Source: Nitrosopumilus ureiphilus
Lineage (GTDB): Archaea > Thermoproteota > Nitrososphaeria > Nitrososphaerales > Nitrosopumilaceae
Direction: 5' to 3'
DNA: 64,000 nt
NCBI RefSeq assembly: GCF_013407185.1
Contig: NZ_CP026995.1
Span: forward strand, 1,199,913 to 1,263,912
Below are positions 20,299 to 49,218 of this stretch, in pieces. The notes beneath the pieces were generated by a model. The model saw only the letters and a program-made list of their open reading frames with translations. It ran no database searches and was not told the origin of the DNA. Position 1 is the stretch's first letter, and each line of letters opens with the position of its first letter. Both the position numbers and the translations under genes were made by a program.

Positions 20299-21081
20299 TT
20301 AGTTTCTAATTGGCAGGTTGCTAAATTCATTTACAGCAGTGTTGTTATCAAGAATTCTTGGAAAGTCACATCCTAATCCTCTCAACCTTCTAATCTCATC
20401 GAGATTTTTTGTAGCCATTGCCATGGCTATTCTTGCTGTTTTTTCTGCTCCAATTCCACAATTCACAACAATGTTGAGATTTTTTTGAATCAATGCGGCC
20501 AAATTTTTTGAATGTGTTTGTGTCTGACTGTCAGAGACAATTACAAAGTTGTCTCCACCCATAAAAAATCCCAATAGGTTATTGTCATAGCAATAATATG
20601 AAATTATTTGATGAGTTGCTTGAACTAACAAGGTAATTTCGTAGGGAGATGTGTTTTTTCTCATCTGAGTAATTCCTTCTATATCCAGATGAATCAAATG
20701 AACTCCATCATTAACAGAGTCCTTTCTTATTGCAGCACTAATCAAGTTACTGCAATCCATAGAAATTTGAGCCAAGTGTGCCTGTTTATTTGCCAAGAAA
20801 GGAGATTTAGCATTTGCAATTGCCATAGAAATTTCAAAGGGGAAAAGATCTTGTAGTTTTGTTTTGATTTCAAGATGGGTAGAATAAGAAATCCCATCAG
20901 TTATTGCAAAAAATTCATCAAATCTATTTGCAAAAACTAATCCCCCGTACACGGAAAACATGTTCTGAGTGGCCTCATACAATGATGATTGATACATCTG
21001 AAGTTTGTGTTCTCTATCATTTCCAAGTGTATGAGTCCAGGAACCATAATTATCAATAGTCAACAAAGTTATTTGAACCAT
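20299..21081 (-). CDS. arfA: GTP cyclohydrolase III (archaeal ArfA type), 260 aa
   Basis: The archaeal type III fold begins MVQITLLTIDNYGSWTHTLG and continues YGGLVFANRFDEFFAITDGI. Further motifs are LIHLDIEGIT and GFFMGGDNFVIVS (metal/nucleotide site), ending in KNLDEIRRLRG. The ATG at 21079-21081 matches the family start. A GTG at 21088-21090 overlaps the ribB stop (GTGA) and would add three residues. The enzyme makes the formamidopyrimidine precursor of riboflavin/F420. It is coupled to ribB. Confidence 0.9.
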   Translation of the reverse strand: MVQITLLTIDNYGSWTHTLGNDREHKLQMYQSSLYEATQNMFSVYGGLVFANRFDEFFAITDGISYSTHLEIKTKLQDLFPFEISMAIANAKSPFLANKQAHLAQISMDCSNLISAAIRKDSVNDGVHLIHLDIEGITQMRKNTSPYEITLLVQATHQIISYYCYDNNLLGFFMGGDNFVIVSDSQTQTHSKNLAALIQKNLNIVVNCGIGAEKTARIAMAMATKNLDEIRRLRGLGCDFPRILDNNTAVNEFSNLPIRN

Positions 21082-21086
21082 AATTA

Positions 21087-21761
21087 TCACGCGTAAATTT
21101 TTGAATGATTTAGTATTTCGCTAGCCTCAAGCATCGGAATTCTGTTTGAATCAGCATATTTTTTGGCTTTATCCAAACTCAATGCTTTATGAGTAATTGA
21201 ATCCATCATCTCACAAATCACAGATACAGGAGACATCTCTGCTAATCTTAGCAAATAGGTGGACATTTCGGTGTGTCCCTGCCTGGTTTTAATCAAATCA
21301 GGGGCAGATTTTAACAACGGAATGTGCCCTGGAACTTTAAACATTCTTTTAAAATAATTAATTTGGTAAGGTTCAGGCATTTCTGCAACTCTTGCCATTT
21401 CATTTGCAGTTAATGCTCGATCATAATCAGTAATGCCTGTTTTAACTTCTGTATGGTTTATCCACATTGAAAAGGAAGGATGATCACCATACTTTGTACT
21501 GTTGTATATCATATCTTTATGTTCGTCAACAGAGTATTGTTGAAGAGATTCATGCATGTATTGCAATTTTAAATTTCTAGAAATAATATCATCAACTGCT
21601 ATGCAGATTAGACCACCTGCAAATTGTCTCATTTGTGCAATATGTTCTGGAGTAACATGTTTTGCAGAAATTACCATATCTACTTCATTTTCTCTATCTG
21701 ATGAGTCATGAAGTAAAATAAAGTGACCTCTTTTTAGATAGTCCAATGCTTTATCTAACAT
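21087..21761 (-). CDS. ribB: 3,4-dihydroxy-2-butanone-4-phosphate synthase, 224 aa
   Basis: A RibB domain starts ALDYLKRGHFILLHDSSDRENEVDMVISA (acidic loop DRENEVDM). Later motifs are QFAGGLICIAVDD, and RQGHTEMSTYLLRLAEMSPVSVICEMM, containing the catalytic RxGHTE segment. It converts ribulose 5-phosphate to the four-carbon unit of riboflavin. It lies directly after arlJ on the same strand, with its own operator copy, and is followed by arfA. Confidence 0.92.
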   Translation of the reverse strand: MLDKALDYLKRGHFILLHDSSDRENEVDMVISAKHVTPEHIAQMRQFAGGLICIAVDDIISRNLKLQYMHESLQQYSVDEHKDMIYNSTKYGDHPSFSMWINHTEVKTGITDYDRALTANEMARVAEMPEPYQINYFKRMFKVPGHIPLLKSAPDLIKTRQGHTEMSTYLLRLAEMSPVSVICEMMDSITHKALSLDKAKKYADSNRIPMLEASEILNHSKIYA

Positions 21762-21797
21762 GATGGAATTTGAGTTGTTTTGGTATTAAGAAGTGAT

Positions 21798-21817
21798 TTG
21801 TCTGAATTAAACAAACA
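21798..21817 (-). promoter_or_regulatory. Operator copy TTGTCTG-aattaa-ACAAACA
   Basis: TTGTCTGAATTAAACAAACA, inner edge 37 nt upstream of the ribB ATG. It places riboflavin genes under the same motif as archaellins. Confidence 0.6.
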
Positions 21818-27963: not shown

Positions 27964-28668
27964 CTAACCCAAATCTACTACTTGGTTTGTAATTGTTGGA
28001 ACTTGTCTTTCTACTGTCAAGGCTGCGCCAGTTGGAACAATTATCTCAGCTTTTACTTTATCTAAAGCTGATGGTCTTTCATTTGCTTTGAAAGCAATTG
28101 CAAGAACTGCTGTTTCACCTTGTTCGAGGATATCATTACTGGTACTTTCTTGTGACCAATAGATGAATGCACGAGTGTTGGATGGATGTGAAACACCTAG
28201 GAATGGATTTACATCAACGTCTGAAAATGTTTCAAATCCAGTAGAAGTAGCAGATACAGCTGCTGCAGTTGCAGATGATAGACTTTTGTATTCGCCTGAT
28301 AGAGTTCCTACGTAGATGTTATCATAGTCTATAGAATTGCTGACATATTTGACTGCAGCAGTCTTTGCGTCAAGATTGACATTGGCACCGCCAGATGCAA
28401 TCTTGATTGGAAATGCAGTCATATTCAATTTTCCTACGGTGGTATCACCAGAACCGATAACTTTACCGGCAATTTGCATGCTGCTACTTGCTTCATCCAA
28501 GCTAGAAATGATAGATGTCTTTGCCTTTTGGGTAGTAGTAAATCCCATGTTAAGTACAACAAATGCGAGTGCTGCAGCAACGATTACAAATGCAATCATA
28601 ACTATTGCAGACTCTACACCGATGACTCCACGATGAGAATGTCGCGTTCCCTTTCGTTGTAATTTCAT
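27964..28668 (-). CDS. arlB: Archaellin (FlaB), 234 aa
   Basis: A class III signal peptide (MKLQRKGTRHSHRG, cleavage before VIGVESAIV) precedes the hydrophobic polymerisation helix (IVMIAFVIVAAALAFVVLNMGF). A variable surface beta domain ends in the conserved TVERQVPTITNQVVDLG. It is the archaellin nearest the motor genes. The first ~50 codons are almost identical in DNA to the three other archaellins in this block. Own operator copy 40 nt upstream. Confidence 0.94.
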   Translation of the reverse strand: MKLQRKGTRHSHRGVIGVESAIVMIAFVIVAAALAFVVLNMGFTTTQKAKTSIISSLDEASSSMQIAGKVIGSGDTTVGKLNMTAFPIKIASGGANVNLDAKTAAVKYVSNSIDYDNIYVGTLSGEYKSLSSATAAAVSATSTGFETFSDVDVNPFLGVSHPSNTRAFIYWSQESTSNDILEQGETAVLAIAFKANERPSALDKVKAEIIVPTGAALTVERQVPTITNQVVDLG

Positions 28669-28707
28669 TACTTAGTGAAGAGTGGTGTGTGGGTATATCA
28701 TAGAGTG

Positions 28708-28726
28708 TGTTTGTGGTGATCAAACA
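28708..28726 (-). promoter_or_regulatory. Operator copy TGTTTG-tggtgat-CAAACA (archaellin)
   Basis: TGTTTGTGGTGATCAAACA, a perfect 6-bp inverted repeat with a 7-nt spacer, inner edge 40 nt upstream of the ATG. An AT-rich TATA-like stretch (ATGATATACC on the coding strand) lies between. Identical to 30381-30399. Confidence 0.7.
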
Positions 28727-28790
28727 CAGAGTATGAATTTTAGAATGAATCATAAATGATTCTATAACATGTAAAAAATCAAGTGTGTGT

Positions 28791-29510
28791 TTATCCCAGG
28801 TCTACTACTTTATGAGTAATATTTGGTATGTGACGTTCTATAGTTAGGGTTGCACCATTTGAAACGATTATTTCCAAACTGATTTTGTCCAATGCTCTAG
28901 GCCGATCATCAGATGCAAATGCCACTGCCAATGTAGCATGCTCACCAAGTTCTAAAACTTGATTTAGATTTTGTCGCTTGGACCAATATACAAAGGCAGT
29001 AGTTTCACTAGGAAGTGTACCATTAACGGGATTTGCTCCATTAAATGCATCAAAAGTGGAATCAGTCTCTAGATCAGCTTGTCTGAATGCTAGAACTGAT
29101 TGTCTAAAAGTATCTACAGTGATAGGTCCAGCATAAATATTATTGAATTGAATGGATTTTCCTAAATAACTAATAGATACTAACTCAGGAGAGAAATTTA
29201 CAGCATTTCCAGATTGAGAAATTTTAAGAGGGATTGTAGTTGCATTAATTCTTTGAATAGAAGTACAACCAGCATCAATATCAATACATCCAACTGCAGT
29301 AATAGTTCCAGATATTTTCATAGTACTACTAGATTCTTCAAGACTGGAAAGAGTGGCAGTCTTTGCCTTTTGGGTAGTAGTAAATCCCATGTTAAGTACA
29401 ACAAATGCGAGTGCTGCAGCAACGATTACAAATGCAATCATAACTATTGCAGACTCTACACCGATGACTCCACGATGAGAATGTCGCGTTCCCTTTCGTT
29501 GTAATTTCAA
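28791..29510 (-). CDS. arlB: Archaellin (FlaB), 239 aa
   Basis: Same signal peptide and polymerisation helix as the neighbours. Its surface domain is divergent: a pair of cysteines (GCIDIDAGCTSIQR) may form a disulfide, as in the copy at 29622. It ends IERHIPNITHKVVDLG. Confidence 0.93.
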   Translation of the reverse strand: MKLQRKGTRHSHRGVIGVESAIVMIAFVIVAAALAFVVLNMGFTTTQKAKTATLSSLEESSSTMKISGTITAVGCIDIDAGCTSIQRINATTIPLKISQSGNAVNFSPELVSISYLGKSIQFNNIYAGPITVDTFRQSVLAFRQADLETDSTFDAFNGANPVNGTLPSETTAFVYWSKRQNLNQVLELGEHATLAVAFASDDRPRALDKISLEIIVSNGATLTIERHIPNITHKVVDLG

Positions 29511-29545
29511 TGCATTGTAGGACGCTTGTAAGAGTATATTCTAAA

Positions 29546-29566
29546 GTCTGTATATTGTAAACAAAC
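29546..29566 (-). promoter_or_regulatory. Weak operator copy upstream of archaellin 28791-29510
   Basis: GTCTGTATATTGTAAACAAA with half-sites TGT and ACAAAC; inner edge 36 nt upstream of the ATG at 29510. Confidence 0.4.
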
Positions 29567-29621
29567 AAAACTAATTTGTAAAAAATAAAAAAGAAGAAAA
29601 AGGAGAAACCAGATTAGTGGT

Positions 29622-30341
29622 TTAGCCCAAGTCTACTACACTTGTGGTGATGACAGGCACTTGCCTTTCTACTGTCAAAGAAGCTCCAGTTGCAACAATT
29701 AGTTCTGCCCTGATTGTGTCCAATGATGAAGGTCTGTCAGAGGAGCCATATGCAATAGCCAATACAGCGTGTTCACCTTGATCCAAGATTGAATTGGTGT
29801 TAGACTGAACTGACCAATAGACAATTGCGGCAGTTTGACTGGCAACAGTTCCATTTACAGGATTGACAGCACCTGAAAATCCTGTTAAACCATCTGTAAC
29901 TGCTTGTTCAAATGCAATTGTTAATGATCTGTGTTCTGCTGCGGTGATTGGACCAGAGTAGATATCATCATACTCTACACTATTGCTGAGGTATTTCACA
30001 GCAGTAGTTGCCAAGGACAAATCAACTGAATCACCACCAGAGGTGACCTTTATTGGAAATGAAGTAGCGTTGAGTTTAGAGGTTGTAGCACAAGCGGTTT
30101 CACTTGAAGATGAGGTACAACCTACACCAGTAACTTTACCGGCAATTTGCATGCTGCTACTTGCTTCATCAAGTCCAGAAATGATAGTAGTCTTTGCCTT
30201 TTGGGTAGTAGTAAATCCCATGTTAAGTACAACAAATGCGAGTGCTGCAGCAACGATTACAAATGCAATCATAACTATTGCAGACTCTACACCGATGACT
30301 CCACGATGAGAATGTCGCGTTCCCTTTCGTTGTAATTTCAT
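29622..30341 (-). CDS. arlB: Archaellin (FlaB), 239 aa
   Basis: Signal peptide MKLQRKGTRHSHRG, then the shared helix. The surface domain has a GCTSSSSETAC cysteine pair and threonine/serine-rich loops; terminal TVERQVPVITTSVVDLG. Its upstream ~60 bp are nearly identical to those of the archaellin at 27964, including the operator. Confidence 0.94.
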   Translation of the reverse strand: MKLQRKGTRHSHRGVIGVESAIVMIAFVIVAAALAFVVLNMGFTTTQKAKTTIISGLDEASSSMQIAGKVTGVGCTSSSSETACATTSKLNATSFPIKVTSGGDSVDLSLATTAVKYLSNSVEYDDIYSGPITAAEHRSLTIAFEQAVTDGLTGFSGAVNPVNGTVASQTAAIVYWSVQSNTNSILDQGEHAVLAIAYGSSDRPSSLDTIRAELIVATGASLTVERQVPVITTSVVDLG

Positions 30342-30380
30342 TACTTAGTGAAGAGTGGTGTGTGGGTATATCATAGAGTG

Positions 30381-30399
30381 TGTTTGTGGTGATCAAACA
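30381..30399 (-). promoter_or_regulatory. Operator copy TGTTTG-tggtgat-CAAACA (archaellin)
   Basis: Identical 19-mer to 28708-28726; inner edge 40 nt upstream of the ATG at 30341. Confidence 0.7.
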
Positions 30400-30411
30400 T
30401 GTTTCAGAGAA

Positions 30412-31296
30412 TCAATTTTGAGGATGCTGATTTCGGAAAAAAACTATAGAATCAGAAAGCTCTTTTTGAGTAAAAAACCCATCACTAAACCAGCATAGTG
30501 GTTTTTTATACCAATTTGGTAATGAGATTCCTTCAAAAAGAAAATCAGAAGGCTCAGAATTTTGACAAACTTTCAAGGACTTTGATTTTAAATCATCATC
30601 TACACCATCAATTGGAATTTCGAGTGAAAGTGTAGTGGATTCACTTGGAATTCCATATACTAGTTTTAATACATAGTTTTTATCATGACTCCACATATAA
30701 CTTGAAATATCTATGAATTCATCAAAAGTCGCATCAGGTTTAAATGAATCAACTTTTTGAAAAACGAGATTGTTTTTGCTATCAAATATCAATATTTCAT
30801 ATCCAGTAGAGCCCAAATCAGATTCTACCAAACCATTAATCTTAAGCGTGTCTGGATTTTGAGTCTCATACGAGATATCTAGTGTAGACTGGTACATGTT
30901 AGGATTATCTTCAAAGAAGATTTTCCCAGTATACCATGGATGAATTTCACAAAAATAATAGTACGCTGCATATCCCTCAAAGTCCAAATTAACAGAAAAG
31001 TTTTCTCCAGGAGATAAAACACTAGTAGAAAAAAACTCTCCAGAATAATCAGGGTGTTCAGGCACACCACTTACAATCATATGTGCAGTTGAATCATGAT
31101 TTCTCCACGTAACTTTATCGCCAGAAGATATCGGAAGTTCGATAGGTTTGAACAGTTCCTTTTTAGATAATCCGTCATAGGGCTTTAAAAAAACATTCCA
31201 AGTGTTTTCTTCAGCGTAAACAGAAATCGAAAGAAATGTTGAGACCAAAAAGAATCCAAAAAGTAACTGTAATATCATACCCATTATTAGTTTCAC
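30412..31296 (-). CDS. Secreted cupredoxin (plastocyanin-like) protein, 294 aa
   Basis: A signal peptide (residues ~1-28, LLFGFFLVSTFLSISVYA) precedes a type-I-copper domain: the first His in HDSTAHMIVSG and the Cys-His pair in FCEIHPWYTGKI. The position after HPW, which could supply an axial ligand, is Tyr rather than Met, so copper may be bound differently. A second all-beta domain (about 140-230) and an acidic tail with two cysteines follow. It is inserted between archaellin genes on the same strand, so it is probably expressed with them. Thaumarchaea use cupredoxins for electron transfer; a role here is unknown. Confidence 0.82.
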   Translation of the reverse strand: MKLIMGMILQLLFGFFLVSTFLSISVYAEENTWNVFLKPYDGLSKKELFKPIELPISSGDKVTWRNHDSTAHMIVSGVPEHPDYSGEFFSTSVLSPGENFSVNLDFEGYAAYYYFCEIHPWYTGKIFFEDNPNMYQSTLDISYETQNPDTLKINGLVESDLGSTGYEILIFDSKNNLVFQKVDSFKPDATFDEFIDISSYMWSHDKNYVLKLVYGIPSESTTLSLEIPIDGVDDDLKSKSLKVCQNSEPSDFLFEGISLPNWYKKPLCWFSDGFFTQKELSDSIVFFRNQHPQN

Positions 31297-31374
31297 AAGG
31301 ATCTCAGCATTTATAATATTGTTTGATCAGAATGAATAAAATAAAAAAGTAAGAAACTTGGTTAAACTCTGAGA

Positions 31375-32055
31375 TTAACCAAGATCTACTACGGATGCAG
31401 ATATGTTTGGAACTGTACGCTCTACTGTCAATGGTGCACCTGTTGGAAGAATCACCTCTGCTCTAATGATATCAAGAGATTGGGGTCTTTCAGCATCAGA
31501 GAATGCAATTGCCATCATTCCATGTTCTCCTTGATCCAAGATGAAATTGTTATTTCTATTTACATTGAAATAGAATATTGCCTTTGTTTCTACTGGAGAA
31601 GTAACATTAACGGGATTGCTATTGATATAACCATCAGTTACTGCCTGCTGCATTGCACTTGCCAAGGTGTCATGAGTTCCAGTAGATAATGCACCGGCAT
31701 AGATATTTCCGTGCTCTACACTGTTACTTATGTAACGTATAGCAGCATTTGCAGGATTGAGGTTAATTGATGCACCTCCAGATACAATCTTGATTGGAAT
31801 AGCAGTAGCGTTGAGTTTACCTGCAGCGACATGTCCTGAACCAATGACTTTGCCTGCAATTTCTAATGCACTGCTTGCTTCATCAGCACTTGAGACTATG
31901 GCATTTTTTGTCTTTTGTGTAGTAGAGAATCCCATGTTAAGTACAACAAATGCGAGTGCTGCAGCAACGATTACAAATGCAATCATAACTATTGCAGACT
32001 CTACACCGATGACTCCACGATGAGAATGTCGCGTTCCCTTTCGTTGTAATTTCAT
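31375..32055 (-). CDS. arlB: Archaellin (FlaB), 226 aa
   Basis: First gene of the motility block. Same signal peptide and helix (ending VLNMGFSTTQKTK). Surface domain closest to the orphan archaellin at 41740 (shared GGASINLN, HGNIYAGA, FFNVNRNNNFILDQGEH). No cysteines. Ends TVERTVPNISASVVDLG. An operator copy lies 39 nt upstream and the TrmB gene is divergent. Confidence 0.94.
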   Translation of the reverse strand: MKLQRKGTRHSHRGVIGVESAIVMIAFVIVAAALAFVVLNMGFSTTQKTKNAIVSSADEASSALEIAGKVIGSGHVAAGKLNATAIPIKIVSGGASINLNPANAAIRYISNSVEHGNIYAGALSTGTHDTLASAMQQAVTDGYINSNPVNVTSPVETKAIFYFNVNRNNNFILDQGEHGMMAIAFSDAERPQSLDIIRAEVILPTGAPLTVERTVPNISASVVDLG

Positions 32056-39158: not shown

Positions 39159-39629
39159 ATGGCTAGAAAATTACTGATTGCAGAAGACAATAAATTCACA
39201 GCAATACAATATAAAAAATTTTTTGATGTAAATGGGTACAAGGTCACAGTCTTCAATGACGGTGCAAAATGTCTTGAAAAGTATGCAAGTGAGTTAAAAT
39301 ATAAAAGAATTGTATTAAAAGACAAAACACCACCGTATGATTATGTATTGCTTGATCATGATATGCCAAAAATGAGCGGTGCTGAAGTATCTAAAAAAAT
39401 TTACAGGCAGTGTCCAGAGCAAAAAATTATATTTTTGTCCGCATATGGCCAAAATATTCTAAAATCCCATGAGAGTTCTAAAGAAGGGTCTCTTCAAATA
39501 ATGCAAAAACCTTTTTCATTAGAATTTTTACTAAAGAAAATAGAGCCTAAATCATTTACAAGTATAAAAAGAACAAATCAAGAAAATAATGTAATGACTT
39601 CCACTCAGAATCCAGAAACTGTTCGATGA
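39159..39629 (+). CDS. CheY-like response regulator, 156 aa
   Basis: A receiver beginning MARKLLIAEDNKFTAIQYKKFF, acceptor in YVLLDHDMPKMSG, S in IIFLSAYG, K in MQKPFS. About 35 residues of polar tail. Paralogue of 9399-9767. A weak half-site (ACAAACAAG, about 39117-39125) lies upstream. Confidence 0.86.
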   Translation: MARKLLIAEDNKFTAIQYKKFFDVNGYKVTVFNDGAKCLEKYASELKYKRIVLKDKTPPYDYVLLDHDMPKMSGAEVSKKIYRQCPEQKIIFLSAYGQNILKSHESSKEGSLQIMQKPFSLEFLLKKIEPKSFTSIKRTNQENNVMTSTQNPETVR

Positions 39630-39883
39630 GTTTGTATTACAAATGAGAGATTTCAATTTTTTTAATTAATCCATATATATAATGATTATTTTGATCACAT
39701 AGACATCGTTACAGATGTAATTTGTGTATTGATTTATCGACAAAAACCATCAATACTTTTTGAAGATGATTTCTTTTCAAAAAGAAATTAACAAAATTCA
39801 AATTCGCAAGATTTCACAGCATCATTGCTAATCAAAAATAGAGATTGTAAGTATTTTGGGATAAATTCACATTTGTCAAAAAT

Positions 39884-40190
39884 GTAGTGTATATGCACAG
39901 TTGTGAACTACCACTCGCCAAAGCTCGTGGCTTCCTGCTTCATCGAGCCTCAAAGTTGCTTTCGCAGACGTTTGTGGTTGTGGCTCTTGCATCCCTTGGT
40001 CGGGGATTGTCTTTTCAGACTCAGGCGTTTGTATTTTGATGATTCCCATAGTTCCTGTGGTATCATATGTCATTGGTTTTCTTACACGCATATTATATTT
40101 GAATATTTGATTGTGTTTTGCTTTGAGTTGTGGTGTGCTCGCTTTCATCCAACCCTAAAGGGTTTGGGTTTTCCCGCTCATATTCCATAA
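39884..40190 (-). mobile_element. Non-autonomous remnant of the TnpB element
   Basis: Read on the minus strand, the left end (GAGCGGGAAAACCCAAACCC, then TTTAGGGTTGG) is at ~40147-40190. The right end (GATGAAGCAGGAAGCC ... GGTAGTTCACAACTGTG) is at ~39890-39945. Both match the element at 1.1-2.45 kb. Between them only a ~90-codon frame survives, ending with the TnpB C-terminal signature (KATLRLDEAGSHEL). All catalytic parts are gone. It could still be mobilised in trans or encode a guide-RNA scaffold. Confidence 0.65.
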
Positions 40191-40396
40191 AACAAGAAAT
40201 ACAAATCATCCAACTGAATTAGATATGAAAGTAAAAATCAACATCTAGAATTTCTACTCAGTGATTTTTGAATATAAATAAGACTGAATGCCAGTTCATT
40301 TTAGACACTGACATTTGTCTTATTTTATAGACTTGCCATTACGGGGAGTGTTGGTGGCAGTCATTTCCATTATGAGCGAGTATCACGTATTGTTGT

Positions 40397-40419
40397 GTGT
40401 GATTTTTTTGATCACACAT
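40397..40419. repeat. Inverted repeat TGTGTGAT/ATCACACA
   Basis: An 8-bp perfect inverted repeat with a 7-nt T-rich centre in otherwise gene-free DNA; it could be an orphan operator or a small hairpin. Confidence 0.4.
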
Positions 40420-40649
40420 GCTTTGTGTCCTGATTGTAATTTTTCAAAAAAGAAGTCTATTTAAGATGAGAGGATCTCTACGATGACAGCAGAAAGTATT
40501 CTTTCATTTCATGATTTAATCAAATTAAAGAAAAACTAATTCAATTGTATTTATGACTAGAATTAAGGGATTGCCAACCCACAAAATCTCAAATTAATTT
40601 TTTTAGGTGTGATTATGTATTGGATATTATTATATTATGAGTCTATGAA

Positions 40650-40802
40650 TTGTATGTTAAAAAAAGTGATACATGCCATGATGCAAAAATAGTCATTCAG
40701 AGTGGAAAGTATGATAAACACACAAAAGTACAAATCAACCAGTACAATGCATCCAGAATAGTAAAAACCATTGTTCATGTAACCAGACAGAACAAGTTTT
40801 GA
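40650..40802 (+). CDS. Possible basic microprotein, 50 aa
   Basis: TTG-started frame (MYVKKSDTCHDAKIVIQSG...VHVTRQNKF). No family, no clear ribosome binding site. It could be a fragment of a lost gene. Low confidence. Confidence 0.22.
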   Translation: MYVKKSDTCHDAKIVIQSGKYDKHTKVQINQYNASRIVKTIVHVTRQNKF

Positions 40803-41029
40803 AAATCATGGATAATTTAACAAACTCTTGAACAAAAGGCTATTTTAGAATTTTTAAAATACAATTTATTAAAAATAGATGTCTTAATTTTAAGGCGCAT
40901 ACGAACGAATGAAATCAGACGAAAGAAAAGGCGTTTCAGATGCATTAACTTTCTTAATAAACACCTGTTCTTTGATTTGCATCAACTTGATCTTATAATT
41001 AACAAAGAAAAATAAAATATGGTAAATAA

Positions 41030-41614
41030 TTGAAAAAATGGATAATAGTTATTTCGACAATTGCCGTTTTCATGGTATTTTTGAGTGGGACCTTTCAAGA
41101 AAACAAAGAAAAGTTCAATTCAAAATTAAACGAAGAATCATCCACATTAGAAATTGGAAAAGAATTTATCAGTTTAGCATCAAATAATCAAATTGAAGAG
41201 TACAAAGGGAGGATGTTGGGAAACGTCATCGATATTGACGAAGTTAAAGTGTTAAACGATGCAAGAAGTTTTGCAAATAATGAAGAAATTTTAGAGAGAG
41301 GGGTAAGACTAACAGATGCATACAATAGAATTGTATACGAGTTTTCAGCTGAGCGGATTTCTTACAAAGATTACATTATAAAAGTATACGAATACAGAAT
41401 AAAATATGAAAAATTTATGACAGCCATTAATAGTTACATAGGTAAAGAAGACATACTTGTGCTCAAAAACTCCATGTTAAAAGAACTAAATGACATGAAG
41501 TTTCAAATCAGAGAATTTGAAAATTCAAGAGCGCCTGAGAATGACTGGGAATTGATTTCAGAATATGACAAATACAGAAAATTTCTTCCATCCATGTTTA
41601 ATGACGAAGGTTAA
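41030..41614 (+). CDS. Exported helical protein beside the orphan archaellin, 194 aa
   Basis: TTG start followed by a hydrophobic leader (KKWIIVISTIAVFMVFLSG). The mature part is charged and helical (EIGKEFISLASNNQIEEYKGRM...YKDYIIKVYEYRIKYEKFM). No family recognised. It lies 125 nt before the archaellin at 41740 on the same strand. Possibly an accessory protein. Confidence 0.6.
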   Translation: MKKWIIVISTIAVFMVFLSGTFQENKEKFNSKLNEESSTLEIGKEFISLASNNQIEEYKGRMLGNVIDIDEVKVLNDARSFANNEEILERGVRLTDAYNRIVYEFSAERISYKDYIIKVYEYRIKYEKFMTAINSYIGKEDILVLKNSMLKELNDMKFQIREFENSRAPENDWELISEYDKYRKFLPSMFNDEG

Positions 41615-41739
41615 GTAAAAATAAATTTGAACACAGGAGTTATTGGCAGTTAAAAATACATTTCAAACTCAACAAATATGTTTAGTATCATTTTCAGTAT
41701 TCGTTCAAATCAAACGTACATTCCAATATACCATTTTGC

Positions 41740-42432
41740 ATGACAAACTATAATGTGAATCTAGAGAAAAAAGAAGTTCATCGAGGCATAATAGGAGTAG
41801 AAACTGCACTCATAATGATTGCATCGGTCATGATATCTGCTGCATTGTTATATGTAGTGTTTAATACAGGTTTTTCAACAGTCCAAAAGACAAAAAATTT
41901 CATTTCGGCAGGAGTTATTGAATCAAGAAGTAGTTTGGCTATATCAGGAGCACTGGTGGGAGTAGCATCGGTTGGAGAAAACAAACTAAATGTAACTGCA
42001 ATTCCTATCAAAGTGGCAATATCAGGTGGAGAATCAATTAATCTCAATACAGAAAATGCTGCCGTCAGATACATCAATCAAGACATAGAGCACGGAGACA
42101 TTTACACACATACAATTGTTGATGGAATATATTCAAATTTACAAGATGCAATGCAAAAAGCAGTTTCAGACGGGTTGTTACAAAAAAACCCCATTAATCA
42201 AACTGCTGCAACTGAAAATACCCAGGCAATTTTATTTTTTACAATTAATAGAAATAACAACTTTCTAATAGATTCAGGAGAGCATGCATTTATGGTAATC
42301 ATATTCAAAGATTTTGAAAGACCATCTTCGCTAGAGACCATAGTAACAGAGATTGTTTTGTCTACTGGAACTACACTTACAGTCGAACGTACAATTCCAA
42401 ATCTTACCAGCAAAATTGTAGATTTTTCATAG
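41740..42432 (+). CDS. Orphan, divergent archaellin, 230 aa
   Basis: Processing site EVHRG|IIGVETALIMIASVMISAALLYVVFNTGF and terminal TLTVERTIPNLTSKIVDFS identify an archaellin. Its leader (MTNYNVNLEKKEVHRG) differs from the MKLQRKGTRHSHRG of the main block, and DNA identity with the other four is low even in the N-terminal helix. Its surface domain is most like that of 31375-32055. It lies 10 kb from the cluster in a decaying region. It may be a minor or older filament subunit. Confidence 0.88.
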   Translation: MTNYNVNLEKKEVHRGIIGVETALIMIASVMISAALLYVVFNTGFSTVQKTKNFISAGVIESRSSLAISGALVGVASVGENKLNVTAIPIKVAISGGESINLNTENAAVRYINQDIEHGDIYTHTIVDGIYSNLQDAMQKAVSDGLLQKNPINQTAATENTQAILFFTINRNNNFLIDSGEHAFMVIIFKDFERPSSLETIVTEIVLSTGTTLTVERTIPNLTSKIVDFS

Positions 42433-42753
42433 TAAAACCAAAACAAATTTCAATGAAAATGGTTTGAGAGATCAGATTTCAGAGAAATAATTGCACCAAA
42501 CGACATGAGTATACAGGGTACAATTAATGTACAAAATAACCCTATAACATATTCAGTAAAACTTCTAAAAAATATAAGAACACCATAATATCCCAATTCA
42601 CCAGAATTGCCAAACAAAAAGAAGTAATACAGTAGTTAAAATAATCACAATTGATTATAATTCAGATATAACAAATCAGGGTTGAATTTCTAAATGCAAA
42701 AGAAATCGAGGTTTTAGCAAGATAAACAATATGAATTATTTTTCAAAATTATA
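42433..42753. other. Intergenic, no gene recognised
   Basis: About 320 AT-rich bases between the archaellin and a convergent gene. Only frames below 30 codons; no motif or RNA recognised. Confidence 0.5.
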
Positions 42754-43137
42754 TCAACGTCTTTCTTCAGATTTGATTTCCCATTTTTTTGCACCAAATC
42801 GGAGGGATTCTAATTCTAAATGCCCGATTACCTTATCGCCTTTCAGCACCTTTGCATAATCAGATTTTTTCCTACGAATGATTCTTGCTTTTTCATTATA
42901 CCCACCCTCAATCATCTTAATGTCAAATCTTTTTCCAGCCTTGTAAATCAATTTTCTAACAGGAATTGAATCATCAGACAATGAGAATAGTTCAAAATCT
43001 CCAAAATTTTGAGTCAATAGAAGATCACTCCCAAGGTAGATCTCAAGTTTCAACCCAATAGATTGTGCTTGTTCATTTAACCAGGATACGACTTTTTCAC
43101 CATTTCCTTTTTCTGCACCATATACCTGATCCTTCAT
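42754..43137 (-). CDS. Conserved-looking basic protein, 127 aa
   Basis: ATG at 43135-43137 chosen (a TTG two codons upstream is possible). Mixed alpha/beta with a basic C-terminal half (EKARIIRRKKSDYAKVLKGDKVIGHLELESLRFGAKKWEIK). No family recognised; soluble. Isolated. Confidence 0.6.
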   Translation of the reverse strand: MKDQVYGAEKGNGEKVVSWLNEQAQSIGLKLEIYLGSDLLLTQNFGDFELFSLSDDSIPVRKLIYKAGKRFDIKMIEGGYNEKARIIRRKKSDYAKVLKGDKVIGHLELESLRFGAKKWEIKSEERR

Positions 43138-43515
43138 AGACAATAATGAAAATTTTCTATTAATATGATTTTCATTTTCTCAAATTTTTAAAATAATGTA
43201 CAAATTTAACATTGGTTTTACTCCTGTTTTCCTAGTTTTATTCCAAATTGGCATGTGTTTATCACTGATTTTTCATTAAATGTATAAGATTTGTAGAGAA
43301 TACGGCGATATTGTACAAAATACCCATAAACACCTGAAAGGTACATGTATTGCATCTAAACCCTAAAAGACAAACATCGTATTGAACAGTTTTGAATCAT
43401 TATGACATATATCATGACGGAAATTTTTTAAAATTTAAACAGAGTGAATTTTTTGCACATACAACACCCAATAAACTAATTTATGGAGTATTTTGTGTCA
43501 TCGATAACTCTCGAA

Positions 43516-43555
43516 GGGATGTCGCGTCCTTTGCGACTCCCCTCTCGGGGGGGGG
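43516..43555 (+). other. GC-rich stem-loop followed by C4-TCTC-G9
   Basis: GGGATGTCGC pairs with GCGACTCCC (one bulged T, 7-nt loop), followed by CCCC-TCTC-GGGG and a G9 run. Composition is strikingly unlike the surrounding DNA. Candidate small RNA, terminator-like or mobile-element structure; identity unknown. Confidence 0.5.
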
Positions 43556-43666
43556 TTTGAACTTAAACCAGAATATAAAAAATAAAACCCTAAAAGTTGA
43601 AGGTTTTCTAAATGAGAACAGAGAAAATACATTAATTAAATTATTTTGTGTTTTATTGATAGTCCA

Positions 43667-43685
43667 TTTGTTTTATTTGAACAAA
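43667..43685 (+). promoter_or_regulatory. Operator copy TTTGTT-ttatttg-AACAAA
   Basis: A perfect 6-bp inverted repeat with a 7-nt spacer, inner edge 35 nt upstream of the DUF1059 ATG (43720). Confidence 0.55.
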
Positions 43686-43719
43686 CCATATGATTTATTC
43701 TATTACTGAAAACAACATC

Positions 43720-43884
43720 ATGGTAAAAATATTATGTGCAGAGTATGGTTTTGATTGTGTCTTTCAAGTCATCGGAGATGCTTCAGAAGTAATTGAAAAA
43801 TTTCAAAAACATTCTATTGATGCACATGGAATTGAATATAGCATGGAAGGATTGATGAAATTACTTCTTCGAATGAAAAATTGA
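43720..43884 (+). CDS. DUF1059-type small protein, 54 aa
   Basis: ATG at 43720 gives MVKILCAEYGFDCVFQVIGDASEVIEKFQKHSIDAHGIEYS, matching the DUF1059 pattern (CxxxGFDCDF...H...HG). Complete length for the family. Function of the family is unknown. An operator copy is at the standard distance. Confidence 0.75.
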   Translation: MVKILCAEYGFDCVFQVIGDASEVIEKFQKHSIDAHGIEYSMEGLMKLLLRMKN

Positions 43885-43911
43885 AAAATATGAACTGTTT
43901 TTGATTTGTAT

Positions 43912-44285
43912 TTATTTTATTGTTTCAAGTTCGTATTTGATTTGTAAAACAGAATCAACAGTCCTCTTTGCAACAGATCGAATTCTAGAATATGCATGTT
44001 TTTTCTGCATGTCAGGTCTTGTAATTCCTAAAGAGAAAGGACAAACAAAACAGGATGAAATAATTGCACATTCTGCTACCCATTCATTAACATATCTTTT
44101 ATTAAAATATCAAAAACCTTTGATAATTGCACCGAGTGTAACTACACCGTCAATATCTTTTTTTGTAATAATGTATCTATTACTAATGGCACATCATAAG
44201 CTCCTGAAACATAACATATATGATTGATGTTCAATTTTAATGATTTTACTTTTTTTAGTTATAACAATTACTGTAGGTGCCAATC
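43912..44285 (-). pseudogene. ribH: ribH (lumazine synthase) pseudogene with an exact internal inversion
   Basis: Minus strand: VSGAYDVPLVIDTLLQKK, then (after a 1-base loss in a poly-A run) DIDGVVTLGAIIKG. The next segment, 44041-44116, reads correctly only on the plus strand: GQTKQDEIIAHSATHSLTYL and LLKYQKP. Minus-strand reading resumes with FSLGITRPDMQKKHAYSRIR and SVAKRTVDSVLQIKYELETIK, to a TAA at 43912-43914. The inverted 76 bp are flanked by AAAGG (44036-44040) and CCTTT (44117-44121). Re-inverting them restores an uninterrupted reading frame across both joints. The N-terminus above ~44230 is degenerate. Confidence 0.85.
44036..44121. repeat. 5-bp inverted repeats bounding the inverted 76-bp ribH segment
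   Basis: AAAGG at 44036-44040 and CCTTT at 44117-44121. The exchange is exact at these repeats, as expected for template switching at a short palindrome or a small inversion. Confidence 0.75.
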
Positions 44286-44315
44286 AAATTATTCAAAATC
44301 TATTTTATTTAGACA

Positions 44316-44335
44316 CTTGTTTTTTACAAACAAAC
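44316..44335 (-). promoter_or_regulatory. Operator copy upstream of the ribH pseudogene
   Basis: CTTGTTTTTTACAAACAAAC; TTGTTT and CAAACAA half-sites. The standard spacing would put the lost ribH start near 44280, consistent with the degenerate N-terminus. Confidence 0.45.
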
Positions 44336-44362
44336 TGGCATCTCAAATTAAGAGTTTGAAAA

Positions 44363-44545
44363 TTAGTCTTTGATCTCTATGTCTTCTAGAATTTCTAGAA
44401 ATGATTGGTATGAATCTAGTATCTCAGGAGCACTTTGCTTAAGAGATTTTTCAATATTTTTTGATATCGATACAGATGAATTCATGCCTAGCTTAATGAG
44501 CTCAAATATGAAAACATGGCAAACAAAAATGGTTGACAAATTCAT
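44363..44545 (-). CDS. Possible small helical protein or gene fragment, 60 aa
   Basis: Frame from ATG 44545: MNLSTIFVCHVFIFELIKLG, then a charged helix (VSISKNIEKSLKQSAPEILDSYQSFLEILEDIEIKD). The helix looks like real protein; the N-terminus may be degraded. No family recognised. The opposite strand is also open but less protein-like. Confidence 0.35.
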   Translation of the reverse strand: MNLSTIFVCHVFIFELIKLGMNSSVSISKNIEKSLKQSAPEILDSYQSFLEILEDIEIKD

Positions 44546-44579
44546 AGAATGTATTTAATTGGGGAAAAATTCAAGTTGG

Positions 44580-45600
44580 GTCTTGCCTGCATTTCAAGGA
44601 GCATTCGAAAATGGACAAACCTCTTATAACATATGACAATTTTTACTTAAATTTGTGCTTAGTAATACTTTAGAAAAAGATCCTGTTTTAAGAGATTTGA
44701 CTGAGTCACCATTAATGCGTTAAAAGATCCAGAACTTGCAAAAAAAGAGTTACAGGAATATGACTTTCTAATGAAGGAGATAGACGGTTGGCAAATGAAA
44801 GTGTAGAAAAGATGTCTCGCGTAAATCATTAACTTCAAGAGAAAATTTCTTTTGTAGAAGATATGACTAAATCAATTCAAAAAAAACATACGTCTAGAAA
44901 AAGAACTAAAATCAGTAAATGTTGAAAAAACAAATTATCACAAATTTAATGGGTTGCTAAAAGAAGATCTTTCTAAAGTGATCAAAAAAGGAATATTCAT
45001 AAAGTAAGTATTTCTAGAAAAGAAAATTAATGAGCAGTCAGAAGAGATGTTAAGAATAGAAAAAATGGTAAATAATAGGGGTCAATTTACATCAAGGTTA
45101 ATCTACTATATGAGAAAGCCATGATCTAAACTAGAAATGTCTCATTACATTTTATGTGAATTGCTAAATATGAAAATTTTAGAAAAAATAAAACATCAAC
45201 AAAGAGTAAGTGACAACATTACAAAAATGACACATACTATTGAAGATGTTTTAGAATTTGTAAGAATGTAAGAATTGGATTTAAAAGAGAATTTTTTTGA
45301 AAACTATTTTGAATTCTTCAATTGATTGTACTAATGTTCTATCATCAATTAATCTAAAAGTAGAAGGAGATGTGTTGAGATTTTATGTGATCATAGAAAA
45401 TTAGAGGCAGTATTTATGAATCTGCTAACAAACGCCATAGATTCCATTCAAAATGAGGATATTATGTAGAGATAAAAATTATTAACAATGAAAACAATAT
45501 TGAAGTTTATTTTGAAGATTCTGGAAAAGAGGCAGATCCTAATTTAGAATCCTTGGCAGAAAATGTAACAAAATGCTATTCATGTTCATCAGATTACTGT
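44580..45600 (+). pseudogene. Decayed sensor histidine kinase
   Basis: Across several frames one can follow LKDPELAKKELQEYDFLMKEIDGWQMKV (linker), GQFTSRLIYYMRKP (former SRxxHDxRNP H-box, histidine lost) and HQQRVSDNITKMTHTIEDVLEFVR. These are followed by a DVLRFYCDHRKLEAVFMNLLTNAIDSIQ-like N box and NIEVYFEDSGKEADPN. At least six stops or frameshifts interrupt it. The order matches the PAS kinases at 45706 and 47787. Clearly non-functional. Confidence 0.75.
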
Positions 45601-45705
45601 TTGTCATATTTGAGATGTTTTTAATTGGTTTTATGGCGTTTTGTGTGTAATATTGTATTTGTTATAACTTCAACATGCAATTTACATAAATAGCCATGCA
45701 CAAAA

Positions 45706-46833
45706 TTAATCATTTTGGGGCAATATCATGGTAAATGTGGTCGGGTTGTTTTTGACAGATATTTTCCCACCATGTCGCTCTATAGTATTTTTCACAGAAG
45801 CCAGACCCAAACCAGTTCCTCTCTGTTTTGTAGTAAATAATGGCTCAAATATTTTCTGAATATTTTCATCAGGAATTCCACTACCTGAATCAGTTATTGA
45901 AATAATTGCAGAATCATTTTTTTCACTTGCAATTATTTCAATTACACCTTGCTCGCCACATGCATGAATTGCATTGTGAACAAGATTTTTTATTGTAGTA
46001 CACATCATGATGTAATCGCAATTTATTGAAAAATCATCATAATTTTTCTTTATCATGATTTTCTCAGGAATTTTTTGCAGTAAGAGTGACTCTGAGATCA
46101 GATCATCGATGCTAGAAGATTCTTTTTCCAGTTCTTTGCTTTTTATAAAATCAAGAACATCTTCCACCTGGTGTGCAATTCTATCAATTGCATTATCCAT
46201 TCTCACAAAAATTTTTTCTGAACTTGGGATGAAGCCATATAATAGCTGCATATTTTCAAGACTTGCTCTTAGAATACTAAGAGGATTGCGTAAATCATGG
46301 GCCATTTTGGAGGCAATTTCACCAATAACTGAAAAGCGATGATGTTTCATCGCAATTTTATTTTTTTCAAGTTCTTCAAATAGATCCATGTTTTGTTTTT
46401 GCAGTAAGTTTTGAGCCACTTGTAACATTTCTGCATAATGTATATTTTCAGTAATGTCGGTTCTGACTGAAATAAAATGAGTGATTTTTCCAGCCTTAGA
46501 AACAGGAAAAATTTTTGTTTTTAACCAAATTGTTTTTCCATCCTTACATTTGTTTAAAATTGCACCACTCCATACTTTACCACTATTAATAGTGTCCCAC
46601 AATGTACGATAAAACTGAACAGGATGATTATTTGATTTAAAAATTCTATGAGTCTTTCCAAGAATTTCGTCTTTTGAAAAGTTTAATGATTTTGCAAAAT
46701 TTTCATTTACATAAATTATTTTTCCTTCCAGGTCAGTAATTGAGAGCAAAATGTGAGAATTTAATGCATTTTCCAGATGTGAGATGTCTAGTGATTCTCT
46801 TGTCAATAAGTTTTCCAGGCTGTTTTGATTCAT
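45706..46833 (-). CDS. PAS-domain histidine kinase, soluble, 375 aa
   Basis: N-terminal PAS (HILLSITDLEGKIIYVNENFAKSL ... SGAILNKCKDGKTIWLKTKIFPV) of the same flavin-type as the MCP PAS. A coiled linker leads to HisKA with His in IASKMAHDLRNPLSILRASL. The HATPase domain has IKNLVHNAIHAC, ITDSGSGIPD and RGTGLGLASVKN. No membrane segment. Cognate receiver not adjacent; 48862-49218 is the nearest. Confidence 0.93.
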   Translation of the reverse strand: MNQNSLENLLTRESLDISHLENALNSHILLSITDLEGKIIYVNENFAKSLNFSKDEILGKTHRIFKSNNHPVQFYRTLWDTINSGKVWSGAILNKCKDGKTIWLKTKIFPVSKAGKITHFISVRTDITENIHYAEMLQVAQNLLQKQNMDLFEELEKNKIAMKHHRFSVIGEIASKMAHDLRNPLSILRASLENMQLLYGFIPSSEKIFVRMDNAIDRIAHQVEDVLDFIKSKELEKESSSIDDLISESLLLQKIPEKIMIKKNYDDFSINCDYIMMCTTIKNLVHNAIHACGEQGVIEIIASEKNDSAIISITDSGSGIPDENIQKIFEPLFTTKQRGTGLGLASVKNTIERHGGKISVKNNPTTFTMILPQND

Positions 46834-47175
46834 TTTTTAAAAGATGTTTTGAAAATAATTATTATGAATTTAAAGATATGGGCTTATGATTGTGCCAAGT
46901 TAATACTAGAATCAATTGTTGGCATGTTAGATTTCAGCAATACAGTTCGCATAATAATTCCTACTTACATAATTACAAAATTTCCCGTTATATTTTCGAA
47001 AAAATTTGCTTAGACACTCATACTGTTTTTTCATCTTCGGTAAATGAGATACATGTTTCTGGATTTTTTCATGTATGCAAAATTACTAATACAGTTTTGA
47101 TAGTCATCAAAATTCATACACATTTGAAGTTCGTTAAGATTTAATGCAGAATTCATATTTTTTATGATGGATTTT
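46834..47175. other. Intergenic, one weak small frame
   Basis: AT-rich, no operator copy. A 41-codon minus-strand frame (47031-47156) is the only candidate gene. Confidence 0.4.
47031..47156 (-). CDS. Possible microprotein, 41 aa
   Basis: Frame MNSALNLNELQMCMNFDDYQ...MYLIYRR. No domain; uncertain start signals. Could be a chance ORF. Confidence 0.25.
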   Translation of the reverse strand: MNSALNLNELQMCMNFDDYQNCISNFAYMKKSRNMYLIYRR

Positions 47176-47283
47176 TCAGAGGCTTGAGAAGTAAATTCCC
47201 TCTCCCAGAACAGAGAAAACGATAATCAGAATTACAGTTATCGTCATTAAACTTCCAACAATAAAACCAAATAGAGTATTCAT
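47176..47283 (-). CDS. Single-span membrane microprotein, 35 aa
   Basis: ATG at 47281-47283, TGA at 47176-47178. A single hydrophobic helix covers most of it (LFGFIVGSLMTITVILIIVF) and it ends EGIYFSSL. A similar one-helix protein lies at 62533-62643. Possible subunit of a membrane complex; unknown. Confidence 0.5.
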   Translation of the reverse strand: MNTLFGFIVGSLMTITVILIIVFSVLGEGIYFSSL

Positions 47284-47422
47284 TATCTGAGACATACAAT
47301 TTTACTATGGCATAATAAAACAGGGAATATTTGATTTCAATGAACAGTATTTTATATTGAAAAGTAATTCTCATCTAAACTAACAGATGACAGGATATTT
47401 TTCATTATACCTATAGAAATTT

Positions 47423-47552
47423 TTAGTATCGAGTTTTACCGCATTTTCTACATGAAATAGTTCCATTTTTGGAATACATATGATCAGACCTCAAATCCAA
47501 ATTCTCGTTCAATCAATTTCTCATACATGTCAAATTCGAAAGTTCTTTTCAT
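47423..47552 (-). pseudogene. Small zinc-ribbon gene, probably frameshifted
   Basis: Minus strand: MKRTFEFDMYEKLIEREFGFE in one frame, then after +1 SDHMYSKNGTISCRKCGKTRY to a TAA. Either a frameshifted gene of ~43 codons or two unrelated frames. The CRKCG end is zinc-knuckle-like. A TGTGTTACAAAC half-site lies 37 nt upstream. Confidence 0.35.
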
Positions 47553-47786
47553 TGTTATTGTAAAACTAGATTGAATTAAGAAATAAAGTGTGTTACAAAC
47601 AAACTACGAGACACACAAGAAGTAATCACAGAATTACCACTACAATTAATTGGACATAGTTTGTGAAGATTCATTTTCTTTTTCTCCATATGAGATAGTC
47701 ATAAAGTATTCCAATCTTTTACTCTTGAGACATAAAGTATGAGTTATTCGTAATCGTGTATAGGGCTATGAAATTTCAATAAGGAT

Positions 47787-48857
47787 TTATTTTTTGGGAA
47801 GTGATATGAAAAATGTTGTGCCATTTCCCAGAGCAGAGGTAAATGAGATTGAACCCCCGTGTTTTTCAACAATAGTTTTACAACTAGGTAAACCCAAACC
47901 AGTTCCAATCTGTCTTGTGGTAAATAAGGGTTCGAAGATCATATCTTTAAATTTATCAGGTATACCAGGACCAGAATCCTTAATTTCAACAATTACATTT
48001 GGATCATCATCGGTTATTCGAATTTTTATTGTTCCATCATATTCCATTACCTGAATAGCATTTAAAATTAAATTTATCAAAACAATTTCAATTTTTTCAT
48101 CATCACATGTGACTACTATATCGTTCTTCGGTGTAACAATTTCGACATTTTCTCTATGAGGTATTTTGTGAACAACATTGATAATTATTGATTGCAAAGA
48201 ATGTTGGCCGAGATGAAGAGGTTTAGGCTTCACATAATCCATGACATCATCTACCTGATGAGAAATCCTCATGGCAGCGTTTTCAATTTTTTGAAAAATT
48301 TCATAGTATTTGTTTATAGTAGGATCTTCAAAAGATTCCAATAGTTGAATGGAGGTCCTAATAATCGCAAGAGGGTTTCGTAAATCATGAGCTATTCTAG
48401 AGGATAATGTCCCTATGATTGCCAGTCTTTTTGTTCTAAGTTTATCAACTTCTTTTCTTATTTCTTTAATTTCAGAAATATCTCTAAGGTTCGTATTACT
48501 TCCAACAAGTTTACCTGTATTATCATATAGATTATTTGTATTAAGTAAAACTGGAAACTTTGAGCCATCTTTTCTTTTCAACCATATCTCAATGTTTGTA
48601 ATTTTACCAGTATTTTGCCATCTCTCGAAAGTGTTTTTCAGATCATCAAAACTATCTTCAGAAACATGATCAAAAATCGATTTCCCAATAATTTCATCTA
48701 ATTCGTAACCTAAATTTTTTGCATAAGCATCGTTACACAGGAGAATTTTTCCATCAAGGTTAACTGTTCTACATAAATCAAGAGATGTTTCATAGATTAA
48801 TTGATAAATTTCATTATGTGAAATATCTAACAAATATGGAGACGTGGAACTTTCCAT
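47787..48857 (-). CDS. PAS-domain histidine kinase, soluble, 356 aa
   Basis: PAS (LDLCRTVNLDGKILLCNDAYAKNLGY...IEIWLKRKDGSKFPVLL), then HisKA with LSSRIAHDLRNPLAIIRTS. HATPase (LINLILNAIQVM, IKDSGPGIPDKF, IGTGLGLPSCKT, GNGTTFFISLP). The ATG is 4 nt after the stop of the receiver gene 48862-49218, forming a receiver-kinase operon. It is closely related to the kinase at 45706 and to the dead kinase at 44.6 kb, indicating local duplication. Confidence 0.93.
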   Translation of the reverse strand: MESSTSPYLLDISHNEIYQLIYETSLDLCRTVNLDGKILLCNDAYAKNLGYELDEIIGKSIFDHVSEDSFDDLKNTFERWQNTGKITNIEIWLKRKDGSKFPVLLNTNNLYDNTGKLVGSNTNLRDISEIKEIRKEVDKLRTKRLAIIGTLSSRIAHDLRNPLAIIRTSIQLLESFEDPTINKYYEIFQKIENAAMRISHQVDDVMDYVKPKPLHLGQHSLQSIIINVVHKIPHRENVEIVTPKNDIVVTCDDEKIEIVLINLILNAIQVMEYDGTIKIRITDDDPNVIVEIKDSGPGIPDKFKDMIFEPLFTTRQIGTGLGLPSCKTIVEKHGGSISFTSALGNGTTFFISLPKK

Positions 48858-48861
48858 ATTA

Positions 48862-49218
48862 TCACACTAAACAACTAAACTCAATTGTTTCCACAAGTTT
48901 TTTCATATCACAAGGTTTGGTGAAGACTGCATTGACATCATTTTCCAAATGTTCATATTTTGAATATCCCGTCATTATAAAAATTTTAGCATTAGGATCT
49001 ATTTTCTTTATCTCTCTGATGGCATAGTTTCCATCATATTGAGGCATTTTCATATCCAAAATAACAAAGTTTGGTTTTAGCTCTTTGTACATGGTTACTG
49101 CCTGACAACCATTATTCCCTTTTCCCAAGATAGCATACCCTTTAAGTTCAAGGAATTGAGATACAACATCTACAATATCTTGTTCATCATCGACTATAAT
49201 TCCTGAAATGATACTCAA
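48862..49218 (-). CDS. CheY-like response regulator paired with PAS kinase, 118 aa
   Basis: Single receiver: VDDEQDIVDVVSQFLELKG, acceptor VILDMKMPQYDGN, T in IMTGYS, K in FTKPCD. First gene of the operon with the kinase at 47787. Most similar in style to 7411-7800 (ILGKGNNG / VIGKGENG, Q/EYDG). No output domain. Confidence 0.92.
   Translation of the reverse strand: MSIISGIIVDDEQDIVDVVSQFLELKGYAILGKGNNGCQAVTMYKELKPNFVILDMKMPQYDGNYAIREIKKIDPNAKIFIMTGYSKYEHLENDVNAVFTKPCDMKKLVETIEFSCLV

Follow-up and report, generated by a model that had tools for sequence, protein, structure and literature searches.

An ammonia-oxidising archaeon of the Nitrosopumilaceae carries a broken copy of ribH, a gene of vitamin B2 (riboflavin) synthesis, whose protein can be read partly from one DNA strand and partly from the other. 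How did the middle of this gene come to lie backwards, and is the arrangement a scar or a switch? The original prediction, made from the letters alone, described a ribH pseudogene with a short inversion that might be reversible. To answer the question we analysed a window of 64,000 nucleotides (bases 1,199,913-1,263,912 of a single-contig 2.17-Mb genome, 99.76% complete, the sole assembly used) and compared it with Nitrosopumilus, Nitrosarchaeum and other Thaumarchaeota MAGs, one genome per species. Positions refer to the window unless stated otherwise.

Results

A second, broken copy of ribH

The locus, hereafter ribH2, lies between a DUF1059 gene and a decayed histidine kinase gene (Table 1). 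An intact ribH, the search for which had been proposed as a check, was found at 2,016,012-2,016,398 of the genome, within a riboflavin operon together with ribB and the gene of GTP cyclohydrolase III. RibH homology, disabling lesions and this intact copy elsewhere in the genome bear out the pseudogene status of ribH2. Both of the other lesions named in the original prediction, a frameshift in a poly-A run and a degraded N-terminus, are present as well, although the frameshift in the A7 run may be a sequencing error. The N-terminal part is too decayed for certain alignment to intact RibH, and the alignment there is ambiguous. Phage records gave no match to the ribH2 pseudogene DNA.

Further to the left, between a 129-aa gene and the DUF1059 gene, we observed a non-coding element at about 43500-43553 (TTGTCATCGATAACTCTCGATGGGATGTCGCGTCCTTTGCGACTCCCC...GGGG) that is conserved in nine genomes from at least two genera of the family. 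A scan of 39600-48900 against Rfam (E up to 0.1) returned no match, this element included, and we regard it as a candidate small RNA.

Table 1 Features of the ribH2 locus and of the second ribB-arfA pair, in window positions
Feature	Position	Strand	Evidence or remark
ribH2 pseudogene (lumazine synthase paralog)	43912..44287	-	translation compared with intact RibH of the same genome
ribH2 stop TAA	43912-43914	-	
ribH2 possible start TTG	44285-44287	-	
Inverted segment, 76 bp, ribH sense here on the plus strand	44041..44116	+	re-inversion optimum and opposite-strand blastn match
Left arm AAAGG of 5-bp inverted repeat	44036..44040	+	
Right arm CCTTT of 5-bp inverted repeat	44117..44121	+	chance probability of arm length 0.012
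Poly-A run A7, -1 frameshift relative to functional ribH	44158..44164	-	functional gene of the same genome has one base more
TATA-like A/T-rich stretch CTAAATAAAATAG, between palindrome and possible start	44300..44312	-	putative, from position only
Operator-like palindrome TTTGTTT-GTAAA-AAACAAG, upstream of ribH2	44316..44334	-	
DUF1059 gene, left neighbour, synteny marker	43690..43884	+	PF06348, E 9.5e-5
Decayed histidine kinase, right neighbour	44662..45524	+	contains stops; intact in G001 and G037 (L109 2033-3118, L108 2060-3142)
DNA missing at the equivalent site of G001, G037, G056 and G094	approx. 43885..44362		~480 bp here, roughly 80-100 bp there
Second ribB (ribB2, DHBP synthase), intact	21087..21761	-	PF00926, E 9.3e-52
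Second arfA (arfA2, GTP cyclohydrolase III), intact	20299..21090	-	PF05165, E 2.2e-46
Palindrome TTTGTTT-AATTC-AGACAAA, upstream of ribB2	21797..21815	-	

A 76-bp segment of ribH2 is exactly inverted

On the minus strand, the unedited sequence reads DIDGVVTLGAIIKG and meets a stop soon after, and the reading picks up again at PFSLGITRPDMQ. The interruption falls after GAIIKG, and the absent middle, KGQTKQDEIIAHSATHSLTYLLLKYQKP, is readable on the plus strand. Re-inversion of 44041-44116 gave a single 81-codon frame across both joints to the stop (DIDGVVTLGAIIKGQTKQDEIIAHSATHSLTYLLLKYQKPFSLGITRPDMQKKHAYSRIRSVAKRTVDSVLQIKYELETIK), as had been predicted. This frame matched functional RibH without gaps, and across the joints the net number of bases is unchanged.

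Within the readable part, every re-inversion with a length of 20-199 bp (n = 24,570, exhaustive) was scored against RibH from the intact gene of this genome. The top score of 262 was shared by 44041-44116 and five repeat-equivalents (out to 44036-44121), which are identical to it because of the AAAGG/CCTTT arms; the unrepaired sequence scored 152, and the mean over the 24,570 re-inversions was 64. A blastn search with the unedited 501 bp against 95 genus genomes matched functional ribH genes at query positions 127-264 and 341-441 on one strand and at 262-345 on the opposite strand. The breakpoints fell at 262-265 and 341-347, i.e. at the arms. When matched with the intact ribH of its own genome, the inverted piece alone aligned (82%, E 3.9e-15). 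Scan and strand split agree with the claim of an exact 76-bp inversion between AAAGG and CCTTT, and the inner edges of the two repeats coincide with the segment boundaries.

An arm match of at least 5 bp was obtained at just 1.2% of random breakpoints of this sequence, which makes it probable that the arms were involved in the event; this chance frequency is only moderate evidence on the point. These results confirm that ribH2 carries a clean 76-bp microinversion, a clear case of an already known type of mutation.

The inverted orientation is derived

In functional ribH genes of the genus, the segment stands as in the re-inverted sequence. One relative, G048, has long stretches of the region in common with the window (75-80% DNA identity), including the same DUF1059 neighbour with a ribH remnant, QKPVSLGISGFGILERHTRNIIHLVAGHAVKSIVKI, directly after it. 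Alignment of this remnant to the window as it stands stops at the arm (AGG), whereas alignment to the re-inverted window runs through the joint (...AGGTTTTTGA). The remnant preserves one joint of the two, that on the C-terminal side, and the extension beyond the arm amounts to 7 bases. Because the syntenic remnant shows the ancestral order at one joint, the inverted orientation is derived. The alignments indicate that the inversion arose in the lineage of the window genome, after its split from G048. The original prediction had named relatives already in this orientation, and with no RibH-like reading, as evidence against it; the functional genes, and the G048 remnant at its one joint, show the other order.

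In four further genomes (G001, G037, G056 and G094), synteny holds for the DUF1059 gene and for the DNA beyond, with no trace of ribH in between; ribH2 was therefore gained in, or retained only by, the lineage of the window genome and G048. No intact ribH2 was found elsewhere in the genus, and there was a single ribH per genome among the genus genomes listed. In trees built on the readable part (110 codons), ribH2 formed a long branch within the genus and did not stand beside the ribH of its own genome. Its neighbour in the protein tree (56% support) was not the one in the nucleotide tree (86%); the trees favour neither duplication nor transfer as its source.

Lesions of ribH2 appear young

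Differences between ribH2 and functional genes at codon positions 1, 2 and 3 were 0.344, 0.102 and 0.465, and those between pairs of functional ribH genes were 0.157, 0.074 and 0.417. Second positions, taken over the whole pseudogene, are barely raised above the functional level (0.102 vs 0.074), and therefore little neutral decay has accumulated. The death of ribH2 is thus recent, and the inversion, the A-run frameshift and the N-terminal damage are all young. The raised first positions would suit a gene that, before its death, had long been under selection that was relaxed but real.

Comparing the substitution density of the inverted segment (25 codons) with that of the remainder did not reveal the order of the lesions. 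In the original prediction, the exactness of the repair had been taken to make the inversion recent relative to the other decay. This argument does not hold, as clean joints mean merely that no bases were gained or lost. What can be dated is that the inversion came after the G048 split.

An operator-like palindrome common to ribH2 and a second ribB-arfA pair

The retained copy of an operator that had been noted before ribH2 was recovered as an operator-like palindrome and looks genuine. The pattern TTTGTYT-N5-ARACAAR has two sites in the 2.17-Mb genome, one before ribH2 and one before ribB2-arfA2, and a control with the reversed pattern gave about one chance site per genome; since the pattern itself was built from the two sites, the count can only be suggestive and does not amount to a formal test. 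The palindrome is conserved upstream of ribB2 in G048 (L071 5383-5401). A further perfect copy in that genome (C16:11705-11723, L074) adjoins no riboflavin gene and has a histidine kinase gene near it. At the main riboflavin operon of the window genome, the palindrome was not found.

The ribB2-arfA2 pair lies inside an archaellum/chemotaxis region, 22 kb from ribH2. Among the 95 genus genomes, ribB2 was present only in the window genome and G048, with 83% amino acid identity between the two, and it is about 50-54% identical to the usual ribB of the genus. The two palindrome sites point to a separately regulated spare riboflavin set. A possible but still tentative reading is that ribH2 and ribB2-arfA2 made up an accessory riboflavin regulon with a dedicated palindromic operator, from which ribH2 would have been lost separately in both species while ribB2-arfA2 and the operator were kept. 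Under this reading, the dedicated operator would make the regulon independent of the main rib operon. The open-access literature on the riboflavin regulator RbkR in Thaumarchaeota yielded no useful text.

Two other observations were made in the archaellum region. Several archaellin genes (27964-32055, minus strand) have an identical N-terminal part and different C-terminal parts, and gene conversion of the 5' part is possible. A 395-aa protein contains an in-frame repeat, EPVHETT/EPVHETA, in about ten copies (26931-27410).

Discussion

We consider it highly probable that ribH2 underwent a one-off microinversion at short inverted repeats in a redundant gene, through template switching or microhomology-mediated repair. 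In the ancestor common with G048, ribH2 would have sat between the DUF1059 and histidine kinase genes, equipped with a promoter region of its own and a palindrome resembling an operator, of the kind found at the second ribB-arfA pair. Made redundant by the ribH of the main riboflavin operon, it would then have died. After the G048 split, 76 bp were replaced by their own reverse complement between the chance 5-bp repeats AAAGG and CCTTT. This was probably a single event; the machinery of replication or repair may have changed template at the short inverted repeat (a template switch or microhomology-mediated break-induced replication), copied the segment from the other strand and switched back at the second arm, with no base gained or lost. 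Since ribH2 was dispensable, the inversion would have been without consequence, and the outcome would be a fixed scar and no switch. The length of the arms counts against the copying model, 5 bp being short for two template switches, and so does that of the segment, which exceeds the lengths in the human/chimpanzee set cited below. Hairpin extrusion was considered as a driver and rejected, because the arms did not pair into a stem when the single-stranded DNA was folded, and its stability was unremarkable (z about -1).

The same 76 bp could in principle have been excised by two breaks and re-ligated in reverse, the arms being coincidental. The frequency of chance arms of at least 5 bp is not negligible for such a non-homologous cut-and-rejoin, but it would take two blunt breaks 76 bp apart and religation with neither gain nor loss of a base, which is improbable; exact copying between repeat arms requires fewer coincidences, and the human/chimpanzee precedent set favours repeat-linked copying (PMC8755829). 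We hold this origin to be very unlikely. Equally unlikely, in our judgement, is an artefact of assembly or sequencing, in which the inverted order would be a chimera and the frameshifts homopolymer errors. A single assembly was available, and the region does contain lesions associated with homopolymers, among them a run of nine G at a distance of about 0.5 kb. A chimera is nevertheless unlikely to turn 76 bp round precisely between perfect 5-bp repeats and lose no base, and the genome is a single contig, 99.76% complete. The histidine kinase gene next to ribH2 has decayed as well and contains stops, and therefore genuine decay is in progress in the region.

We give almost no credence to a phase-variable element, in which a recombinase would flip the 76 bp repeatedly and turn RibH or another product on and off, as the possible reversibility in the original prediction had implied. 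An exact inversion between perfect inverted repeats and an open 108-aa frame on the plus strand across the segment would suit such an element. This frame, however, combines antisense ribH sequence with the inverted piece in sense, and 5-bp arms are too short for a site-specific recombinase system. No serine recombinase (PF00239) was found in the whole genome, and its six tyrosine-recombinase (PF00589) matches are all over 60 kb away from the window, which leaves no cognate invertase near. The re-inverted ribH2 still carries the poly-A frameshift and the degraded N-terminus, so neither orientation makes RibH. The idea of phase switching was accordingly not borne out. As a regulatory device ribH2 is of little interest; its moderate worth lies in recording a natural inversion and in pointing to a second riboflavin set.

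A clean microinversion easily escapes notice, since the inverted stretch is in most cases too short or too diverged for alignment. Here, a reading frame restored by re-inversion, genus-wide functional homologs and the syntenic G048 remnant together make an unusually well-documented and polarised archaeal case. The exact boundaries, the arms and the polarity given by G048 bear out the description of the locus as a clear natural record of short-repeat inversion, and the shared operator highlights a second riboflavin gene set that had gone unnoticed. Our search of the open-access literature on microinversions in bacteria and archaea found no paper on prokaryotes, and ribH2 is therefore a usable seed for the question of how often archaeal replication or repair switches template at 5-bp repeats.

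Three known systems invite comparison. Chloroplast small inversions resemble ribH2 in that short segments are flipped between inverted repeats. They usually occupy the loops of hairpins whose stems are longer, and they recur among close relatives, whereas the ribH2 arms form no stem and no recurrence was seen. Invertons, the site-specific invertible elements, likewise have a segment inverted between inverted repeats (e.g. PMC11892184); ribH2 differs in that no dedicated recombinase is nearby, the arms are far too short, and there is neither evidence of two states nor a regulated product. The closest likeness is to the 59 definite microinversions of human and chimpanzee, every one of which has inverted repeats at its ends, the inner edges of the arms falling on the boundaries; arms of 4-8 nt occur in half of them, mostly as exact copies (PMC8755829). 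Their authors weigh template switching, find two switches with 3-4 nt arms hard to picture, and propose microhomology-mediated break-induced replication (PMC8755829). In common with these cases, ribH2 shows exact replacement by the reverse complement, short perfect arms at the boundaries, an unchanged number of bases and the character of a single event (PMC8755829). It differs in lying on an archaeal chromosome and in its length of 76 bp against 17-33 nt, a span that was the search range of that study and sets no defining limit to the process (PMC8755829). Because the segment lies inside a pseudogene, the protein reading of ribH2 provides an independent check of the inversion.
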